64,000 nt of DNA from Gammaproteobacteria bacterium (GTDB taxonomy: Bacteria; Pseudomonadota; Gammaproteobacteria; GCA-001735895): the NCBI GenBank assembly GCA_024638385.1, contig JAHEKJ010000008.1, positions 1 through 64,000 on the forward strand, in the 5' to 3' direction. Below are positions 30,285-32,419 of this stretch, one piece after another. The position numbers were made by a program, and so were the translations under genes. The notes below the pieces were generated by a model that had not been told where the DNA came from, ran no database searches, and saw only the letters and a program-made list of their open reading frames with translations. Position 1 is the first letter of the stretch. Every line of letters starts with the position of its first letter.

Positions 30285-30866
30285 CTAGTAGATCTCGAAT
30301 TCGAAGACGAACGCGAACAGGTAGACTTCGTAGCAGATCAGCAAGACGTAGCCGGCGCAGAAGAATTGCAGCAGGTGCTCGACGTTGAACGCACCGAACA
30401 GCCGGCGCCGTGCGGCGACGACCAGGATCACGACGGATAGCGACGTGAGCCAGATCTTGCTGGTGACGAATCGATCGACGCCGCCGGCCAGCATCGACGC
30501 CATCAGCGCGTTGCCTTCGGAGGCGCCGATGTTGATCAGGTTCAGCGTGAACAGCGCGTCGGTGCAACTGAGCAGCAAGACACCCAGCGCGAGGTACAGG
30601 ACGCGCGGTCTGTGCCAGTCGAAGAAGTAATGATGCTGGTCGGATTCCCGTCGGCTGGTCCGGCGGCGGGGCCGGAAATTGCCGTACAGGAAAGATCGCC
30701 AACCGCGCTGCCGGCGATTATCGCCGTCGCGCCGCTCCACCGGCCTGTCGCTGGCCGCCACCGGGTCATCGTCCGTCGGCGTACGGGCGACGGTTACCGA
30801 AAGCTCGGAATCGTCGGGACCGGAAGGTTTTGCGTCGAATCGATCTGAACGAGATTTCCCTGTCAT
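30285..30866 (-). CDS. DUF5658-like membrane protein
   Basis: The 193-residue protein has a charged, Arg-rich N-terminal third and then about three membrane helices. The motif C-T-D-A-L-F-T-L with E-G-N-A-L-M further on matches the pattern of DUF5658 proteins. Its role is unknown. ATG 30866 has GGGAGA upstream; the longer frame has no such site. A possible small RNA and terminator lie upstream at 31057-31257 on the same strand, so an attenuated transcript from that promoter is conceivable. Confidence 0.7.
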   Translation of the reverse strand: MTGKSRSDRFDAKPSGPDDSELSVTVARTPTDDDPVAASDRPVERRDGDNRRQRGWRSFLYGNFRPRRRTSRRESDQHHYFFDWHRPRVLYLALGVLLLSCTDALFTLNLINIGASEGNALMASMLAGGVDRFVTSKIWLTSLSVVILVVAARRRLFGAFNVEHLLQFFCAGYVLLICYEVYLFAFVFEFEIY

Positions 30867-31056: not shown

Positions 31057-31085
31057 AAAAAAGGGCCGCCGGATTCCGGCGGCCC
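31057..31085 (-). terminator. Intrinsic terminator of the candidate small RNA
   Basis: On the minus strand GGGCCGCCGG and CCGGCGGCCC pair around a 3-base loop, followed by six Ts. No long gene ends just upstream of it on that strand, which is what draws attention to the short transcript. Confidence 0.85.
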
Positions 31086-31170
31086 CCGAGTTACTTTGGA
31101 GAAAGGCCGTCTGGATCTTCACCGGTAGAACCGGGCTCGATCCGGAGTTGCCGAGCCTCTCGGCTCTCCG

Positions 31171-31227
31171 TCAGGAGTCGATCCCCCCAAGTGTTACGGT
31201 ACCTTTCTCGAATATCTCTGTAGACAC
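31171..31227 (-). CDS. 18-residue micro-ORF within the candidate small RNA
   Basis: GTG 31227 starts the frame MSTEIFEKGTVTLGGIDS and stops with TGA at 31171. AAAGGGGG lies 7 bases upstream, a good ribosome site. It has no rare-codon run, no attenuation-type amino-acid repeat and no known family. It might be a leader peptide or a functional micropeptide. Confidence 0.4.
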   Translation of the reverse strand: MSTEIFEKGTVTLGGIDS

Positions 31228-31263
31228 TAGATCACCCCCTTTAAGTTGTTTGACATGCTCTGA

Positions 31264-31291
31264 AGCATGACACAGATTTCCGGTCTGTCAA
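31264..31291 (-). promoter_or_regulatory. Promoter-like sequence of the candidate small RNA with overlapping palindrome
   Basis: On the minus strand TTGACA (31291-31286) is followed after 16 bases by CATGCT (31269-31264), a modest -10. The -10 lies in a near-perfect inverted repeat, TGTCATGCT-TCAG-AGCATGTCA, which could be an operator. Confidence 0.5.
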
Positions 31292-31411: not shown

Positions 31412-32419
31412 TTGGATCTGCTGACCCAGGGTCTGCTCGGCGGTGCGCTGGCGCTGTCGCTTGCAGACAGCAAAAAATCGCGCCCTGCCGCGGTCATCGG
31501 GTTCACCGCCGCGATGCTGGCCGATGCCGATATCCTCATTCGTTCCGCCGACGACCCTCTGCTCAACGTCGAGTTTCATCGTCACTTCACGCATTCGCTG
31601 ATTTTCATTCCGCTCGGCGCGTTGATCGCGGCGCTGATCCTGTGGCCGCTGGTGAGCAAGCATCTCGGCTTCGCGCGGATCTACGGCTACGCGCTGGCCG
31701 GTTACGCGACCGCCGGCCTGCTCGACGCGTGCACCAGCTACGGCACCCATTTGCTATGGCCGTTCAGCGACGAACGAATTTCATGGAGCATCGTCGCGAT
31801 CGTCGACCCGGTGTTCACGCTGTTGCTGCTGATCGCGCTGATCCTCGGCATGAAGTCTCGCAAGCCGCGCGCGGCGCGCGTCGGCCTCGCGCTCGCCGGC
31901 GCCTACCTGCTGCTCGGCGTCTGGCAGCATCAGACAGCGCTGCAAGTCGCGCGCAGCCTCGCCGCGCAGCGCGGGCACGAGGTCGAGCGCATCCTCGTCA
32001 AGCCGACGCTCGGCAACCTCGTGCTGTGGCGTTCGGTCTACGAGAGCGGCGGCCGCTTTTACGTCGACGCGATCCGGGTCGGCCCGGGCGCCGATCGAGT
32101 TTATCCGGGCGGCTCCGCGCGCCGCTTCGTTGCCGGGCGCGATCGCCCCGGGCTGCTGCCCGGCAGCGTGCTCGCGCGCGACATCGAGCGCTTCGACAAA
32201 CTCGCCGACGGATTCGTCGTTGCCGATCCCGGCCGCGACAACGTCCTGACCGATGTCCGCTACTCGATGCTGCCGACCACGATCGCGCCGCTGTGGGGCC
32301 TCGACCTCAGGGTCGACTCGTCGACGCGACACGCGAACTTCGTCAATTATCGCGACCGGCCCGCGAACGCCCGCGAGCAGTTCGTGGCGATGTTTCTGGG
32401 GCGCGATCTGCCGGAATAG
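31412..32419 (+). CDS. YdjM-like membrane-bound metal-dependent hydrolase
   Basis: The protein has 335 residues when started at TTG 31412. That start gives L-D-L-L-T-Q-G-L-L-G, the usual opening of this family, whereas the longer frame from 31340 adds polar residues without a ribosome site. Metal-ligand residues appear in D-A-D, H-R-H-F-T-H-S and the later S-Y-G-T-H. About four membrane helices follow. The family is distantly related to LexA-regulated YdjM and its substrate is not known. Confidence 0.82.
   Translation: MDLLTQGLLGGALALSLADSKKSRPAAVIGFTAAMLADADILIRSADDPLLNVEFHRHFTHSLIFIPLGALIAALILWPLVSKHLGFARIYGYALAGYATAGLLDACTSYGTHLLWPFSDERISWSIVAIVDPVFTLLLLIALILGMKSRKPRAARVGLALAGAYLLLGVWQHQTALQVARSLAAQRGHEVERILVKPTLGNLVLWRSVYESGGRFYVDAIRVGPGADRVYPGGSARRFVAGRDRPGLLPGSVLARDIERFDKLADGFVVADPGRDNVLTDVRYSMLPTTIAPLWGLDLRVDSSTRHANFVNYRDRPANAREQFVAMFLGRDLPE

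Follow-up and report, generated by a model that had tools for sequence, protein, structure and literature searches.

A probable CC2171-superfamily RNA gene with a conserved 18-codon ORF in a gammaproteobacterial lineage: a candidate translation-gated coding sRNA

What is encoded on the minus strand at positions 31291-31057 of the window, the 64,000-nucleotide stretch analyzed here from contig C162 of a metagenome-assembled gammaproteobacterial genome of 4.25 Mb: a leader of the neighboring gene, a minimal mRNA, or a regulatory RNA? On reading the sequence, the parts of a gene are found in place in this segment, namely a promoter, an extended Shine-Dalgarno (SD) sequence, an 18-codon ORF with a GTG start, a long-range helix and a terminator. 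We conclude with high confidence that the locus is a gene that stands by itself and encodes a structured, ~200-nt RNA with an 18-codon ORF, and that it belongs to what we denote the CC2171 superfamily, an alphaproteobacterial group from which it was probably acquired horizontally. The best overall explanation, to which we assign a probability of about 0.5, is that this acquired RNA works as a translation-gated coding sRNA.

The -35 element TTGACA (31286-31291) is identical in all 19 related gammaproteobacterial copies, and the form TTTGACA is seen in many copies from f56, an alphaproteobacterial family that is probably Rhodobacteraceae. A 16-nt spacer separates it from the -10-like element CATGCT (31264-31269), and a promoter block of the GGCATGCT type is kept across the genus. 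The built-in promoter scan of the locus made no call on the TTGACA/CATGCT promoter because CATGCT is a weak -10 element. The RNA is expected to start near 31257, and the stretch after CATGCT, AAACAACTTAAAGGGGGTGATCTA, leads into the ORF on the minus strand. In the window copy, a perfect inverted repeat, CATGCTtcagAGCATG, spans the -10 region (31254-31269, minus strand); it is absent from the other aligned copies of the genus and probably reflects either chance or a local operator. The unit ends in an intrinsic terminator, GGGGGCCGCCGGAATCCGGCGGCCCTT with its T tract (31087-31057), in which a 12-bp stem (31087-31061; 10 G-C pairs) is followed by T6. The gene is single-copy in the genome of the window.

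The SD, AAAGGGGGTGATC (31242-31230), is near-invariant in the alignments and is complementary to nearly the whole single-stranded tail of 16S rRNA (GGCTGGATCACCTCCTTA, taken from one member of the genus). The predicted duplex is roughly twice as stable as that of an ordinary AGGAGG site (-23.7 to -28.2 vs ~-13.5 kcal/mol), and in the predicted fold most of the 5′ tail of the RNA is single-stranded or pairs weakly. The ORF itself (31227-31171) starts with GTG, ends with TGA and encodes VSTEIFEKGTVTLGGIDS. A sequence-only reading of this DNA had already picked out the promoter pair, the strong ribosome site, the GTG frame and the strong terminator, all of which are present where it placed them on the minus strand; the dedicated transcript unit with a small ORF that it proposed is likewise supported by sequence comparison, as a gene unit with a selected ORF.

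The length of the ORF is 18 codons in 18 of the 19 gammaproteobacterial copies (17 in the remaining one) and in 47 of 51 copies from f56, each from a different genome; the start codon is GTG or ATG. The stop codon itself varies (TAG 20, TGA 19 and TAA 8 in f56; TGA 13, TAA 4 and TAG 1 in the gammaproteobacterial set) at a constant position, with at least 21 stop-codon changes on the RNA tree and none to TGG (P = 3e-7, a value not corrected for relatedness). Among f56 codons with a single difference, the synonymous fraction is 0.40, above the expected 0.28, and the true frame shows this best; in the same test on the gammaproteobacterial set alone, another frame equals the true one, and the early codons are fixed as nucleotides, with hardly any variation even at synonymous sites. 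The f56 ORFs follow the pattern VSRxxLExGVGTxxxxxx-stop, with the LE-x-GVGT core conserved inside the family. Peptides from different families have little in common beyond the initial Met/Val-Ser, and the SD and ORF recur. By these comparisons, selection acts on the end of the ORF, the ORF is very likely translated, and the peptide sequence is weakly constrained and differs between families.

The whole unit, from promoter to terminator, is present in 16 of 31 genomes of the genus (BLAST E values down to 1e-54, covariance model down to 1e-72), with promoter hexamers, SD and ORF all kept; a further copy is cut by a contig end in genome G021, for a total of 16-17 of 31. In the sister genus, the unit was found in 2 of 8 genomes. 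About half of the genomes of the genus are without the RNA, which is either dispensable or missing through incomplete assemblies. One genome, G003, carries two diverged copies on separate contigs (L005 on C259 and L030 on C273), possibly through duplication or a mixed bin. A weak covariance-model match in G023 (L060) with neither SD nor ORF was judged to be due to chance.

The neighboring genes are unrelated between genomes, close relatives excepted. In the window, the RNA is flanked by ordinary neighbors, a gene for a DUF5658 protein (30285-30866, minus strand) and a YdjM-family gene (31412-32419, plus strand); searches with tblastn gave no matches to either protein in 28 related loci, and the locus showed no match to a phage or plasmid. 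Thus, the contexts change around a conserved unit, which is therefore a gene in its own right rather than a leader for DUF5658. The sequence-only reading had offered an attenuated leader of this gene (30866-30285) as one possibility, and indeed the gene lies on the same strand ~190 bp downstream of the RNA, the ORF resembles a leader peptide and a terminator is present. However, other genomes have a different gene downstream, so that there is no conserved regulated gene of the kind expected for an attenuator leader, and the probability of this scenario is close to negligible.

The predicted fold of the RNA (31257-31057) has an energy of -83.5 kcal/mol vs -66.4 (sd 4.5) for dinucleotide shuffles (z = -3.8; 0 of 200). 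Its overall shape is a single long helix, formed by ORF codons 7-12 and a pre-terminator segment, around several inner hairpins, with the terminator directly after it; this replaces the two separate compound hairpins of the sequence-only reading. The start-codon hairpin (TAGTGTCT/AGATATT, 31229-31211; helix 2 of the consensus fold) is nearly invariant within the genus; in f56 it is paired to 95.6%, and two of its pairs carry double changes. In the long-range helix, the 5′ arm lies in the ORF (GAGAAAGG, 31209-31202, continued by CCGT at 31199-31196), and the 3′ arm is the CU-rich, SD-complementary element CCTTTCTC (31106-31099), preceded by ACGG. Both arms are identified by the folds and by a swap test. 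Within the helix, around and after the stop codon, lie the inner hairpins (helices 4 and 5, 31190-31114), which hold 6 of the 13 pairs with double changes in the gammaproteobacterial alignment; the terminator (helix 7) is paired in 98.2% of cells, with double changes in 5 pairs.

Over the 60-pair structure in that alignment, 92% of cells are paired, and the number of double-changed cells is 44 vs 18 expected (0 of 500 shuffles), an excess that is lost when the partners are slid. In the f56 alignment, the corresponding numbers are 132 vs 55 (0 of 500). The sequence-only reading had named the lack of compensatory changes as what would speak against a structured RNA; the covariation found here is strong. 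Because relatedness can inflate covariation counts, an alignment-free swap test was also run, which compares cognate with swapped partners for the energy at which ORF codons 6-13 pair with the pre-terminator element. Cognate partners pair better in the gammaproteobacterial set (-20.5 vs -18.0 kcal/mol, 0 of 2000) and in f56 (2 of 2000), and the controls with reversed or mismatched regions showed no cognate gain; the permutations still break relatedness, and accordingly the test is supportive rather than absolute. Pairing between early ORF codons and the pre-terminator segment is found in every family examined (mean z from -1.3 to -3.6). In f56, the counterpart of the 3′ arm, CCCACCTCC, is also able to pair with the SD (-16.4 kcal/mol, 4 of 2000; mean z -3.2), whereas the swap test gave no support for such SD pairing in the gammaproteobacterial set. 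Two mutually exclusive pairings are thus predicted to be available in f56, and a cis switch is indicated for f56 only.

The claim that the RNA matches no known RNA family holds insofar as none is reached at the Rfam gathering threshold, but the RNA turns out to be a remote relative of CC2171 (RF01867), with which it aligns end to end at 30.0 bits vs a threshold of 75 (E = 9e-5, the value from the first, small-region scan). Of 18 relatives compared with Rfam, the one of Caulobacter type alone reaches the threshold. Across 398 genomes of the phylum, RF01867 matches 86 genomes at E <= 0.001, 13 of them above threshold, and all but the genome of the window lie outside its class. Nearly all of 70 loci read carry AAAGGAGGTGATC, then, 2 nt on, GTG or ATG and an ORF of 14-31 codons. 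Of 289 alphaproteobacteria, 62 carry the exact motif AAAGGAGGTGATC-(N2)-GTG/ATG, nearly always as a single copy, and the reversed pattern gave no match in these genomes; of the 149 f56 genera, 101 have the motif. A search of 274 Gammaproteobacteria with a slightly different pattern found one carrier, the genome of the window. We define a wider CC2171-like superfamily in this analysis by an extended SD, GTG or ATG 2 nt on, a short ORF, and pairing of an ORF arm with a pre-terminator segment, all of which are found in the window.

In a FastTree phylogeny of the RNAs, the gammaproteobacterial copies are monophyletic (support 1.0) and nested inside f56 (0.96), with which they have a promoter and a peptide core in common. 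The f56 RNAs further resemble that of the window in the 18-codon ORF, the CAAAATCTGTGGCA-type promoter and the same helix between ORF and 3′ arm; they differ in that their SD, GGAGG, can be sequestered by CACCUCC, in place of GGGGG and CCUUUCUCC in the window. Horizontal transfer from an f56-like donor into the gammaproteobacterial lineage is suggested as the simplest reading of these relationships, and a wide, almost unstudied alphaproteobacterial RNA family seems to have entered a single lineage of marine, uncultured Gammaproteobacteria. Other subtypes are apparent among alphaproteobacteria: the f46 subtype (L082, L090, L094 and similar loci), recovered only below the Rfam threshold, has an 18-codon ORF MSHGSA...R-stop, and contig C1 of genome G064 carries two RNAs of the family, L076 (805104-805255, with an MSHCH-type ORF) and a motif match at 2921849-2922077 (AAAGGAGGTGATCCGATG) that resembles the MSHGS type, so that paralogous subtypes may coexist in this genome.

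Because the ORF supplies the 5′ side of the predicted long stem, a translating ribosome would have to open this stem, and we therefore propose a translation-gated sRNA. The exposed 5′ tail would capture 30S subunits by pairing with almost the whole 16S tail, and the ribosome would start at the GTG and run into the stem. As long as ribosomes are absent, the stem would stay closed and hide the CU-rich, SD-complementary 3′ arm; a ribosome on the 18 codons would free this arm, which could then pair either with the RNA's own SD, resulting in autorepression through the alternative fold of the f56 RNAs, or with the SDs of other mRNAs as putative targets in trans. Under this scheme, the conserved signal would lie less in the peptide than in the act of translating the ORF. 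Sequence comparison establishes the gene unit, its conservation and covariation, the kept stop position and the kinship, while transcription, translation, gating and any target in trans are inferred. We hold the gating mechanism tentatively, at somewhat less than even odds. The earlier suggestion of a dual-function sRNA appears to have named the right class, that of coding or dual-function sRNAs: the conservation of the stop indicates that the ORF is under selection, as such an sRNA demands.

Three other readings compete with translation gating. The RNA could be a plain mini-mRNA whose 18-residue peptide is the product and acts alone, the stem merely shielding the RNA from nucleases. The strong SD and conserved ORF length, together with the weak purifying selection on f56 codons and the LE-x-GVGT core, fit this possibility, but the peptides share little between families beyond Met/Val-Ser whereas the RNA features persist, the early gammaproteobacterial codons scarcely vary, synonymous sites included, and covariation is strong in and around the ORF; we regard it as unlikely, albeit the most serious of the three. 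A base-pairing regulatory sRNA, in which the translated ORF is incidental to function and the CU-rich arm or the loops bind target SDs, is less probable still: the stop position is held across the at least 21 codon changes and the CU-rich arm is buried in a stem in the predicted fold, even though a CUCC-containing 3′ arm precedes the terminator, as in mmgR/SuhB, and the 3′ half weakly resembles that family (23-30 bits, threshold 41).

The least probable of these readings is a decoy: pairing with the 16S tail over 16-17 bp would let the RNA titrate 30S subunits or sense free ribosomes. This would account for the near-complete complementarity to the 16S tail and its conservation across families. 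A decoy, however, has no need for a conserved stop codon or for the helix between ORF and 3′ arm, and with one gene per genome would require extremely high expression.

Translation gating, if it holds, could extend beyond this locus. An RNA gene of this kind, one per genome, is carried by roughly two thirds of the f56 genera sampled and by many other alphaproteobacteria, and the family seems to have been recorded so far only in its Caulobacter form, as non-coding. It is possible, although we consider it doubtful, that this class-wide alphaproteobacterial RNA is a translation-gated regulator that reports ribosome activity to gene expression and has moved into one gammaproteobacterial lineage. 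The combination of extreme 16S-tail complementarity, a conserved ORF and a variable peptide provides a testable case of translation as the signal that sets the structure of an sRNA, and the gammaproteobacterial branch is an independent natural test of which parts of the RNA are needed.

CC2171 itself is an already catalogued sRNA. In the papers open to search, mentions of it are limited to the Rfam 15 paper and a list of Mesorhizobium predictions; a search by sequence string came back empty, and the text of a 2025 Caulobacter RIL-seq paper on CrfA and SisA-D has no mention of 2171. Within that same scope, there appears to be no description of how widely the family extends, of its ORF or of its gammaproteobacterial branch. 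Most Caulobacter ncRNAs are reported to be untranslated and two of the earlier predicted ones to be translated (PMC4117421); CC2171 may or may not be among these two.

Compared with CC2171, the RNA of the window is of similar length and shares the 5′ block CAACAA..AAAGGAGGUGAUCcAGUGUCU, including the GUG start (the CC2171 block AACAA..AAAGGAGGUGAUC.AGUGUCU is recovered in the covariance-model alignment), the pairing of early ORF codons with the segment before the terminator, and the intrinsic terminator straight after the closing helix. The CC2171 consensus closing helix CAUUGUC/GACAAUG is not found in the window, where GAGAAAGG/CCUUUCUC occupies its place with the same topology. Unlike CC2171, the window copy is gammaproteobacterial; the ORF sequence of CC2171 is different, and Rfam types the family as an sRNA gene, with no ORF mentioned in the output read here. 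The mmgR/SuhB RNAs (RF00519) similarly have a CUCCC motif followed by a terminator hairpin, but the model is without an ORF or extended SD, and membership was rejected at 23.0 bits for the window and 30.4 for the best relative, below the threshold of 41; the sub-threshold matches to mmgR/SuhB, BjrC1505, ncS01 and RcsR1 mostly reflect shared terminator-like 3′ ends. The dual-function attenuator sRNA rnTrpL/peTrpL of Sinorhizobium contains a translated 14-aa ORF (PMC10117765) and is thus likewise a small RNA carrying a tiny ORF, with translation predicted in the case of the window. The Sinorhizobium RNA is leaderless and tied to trpE, whereas that of the window has no fixed downstream gene and carries an extreme SD.
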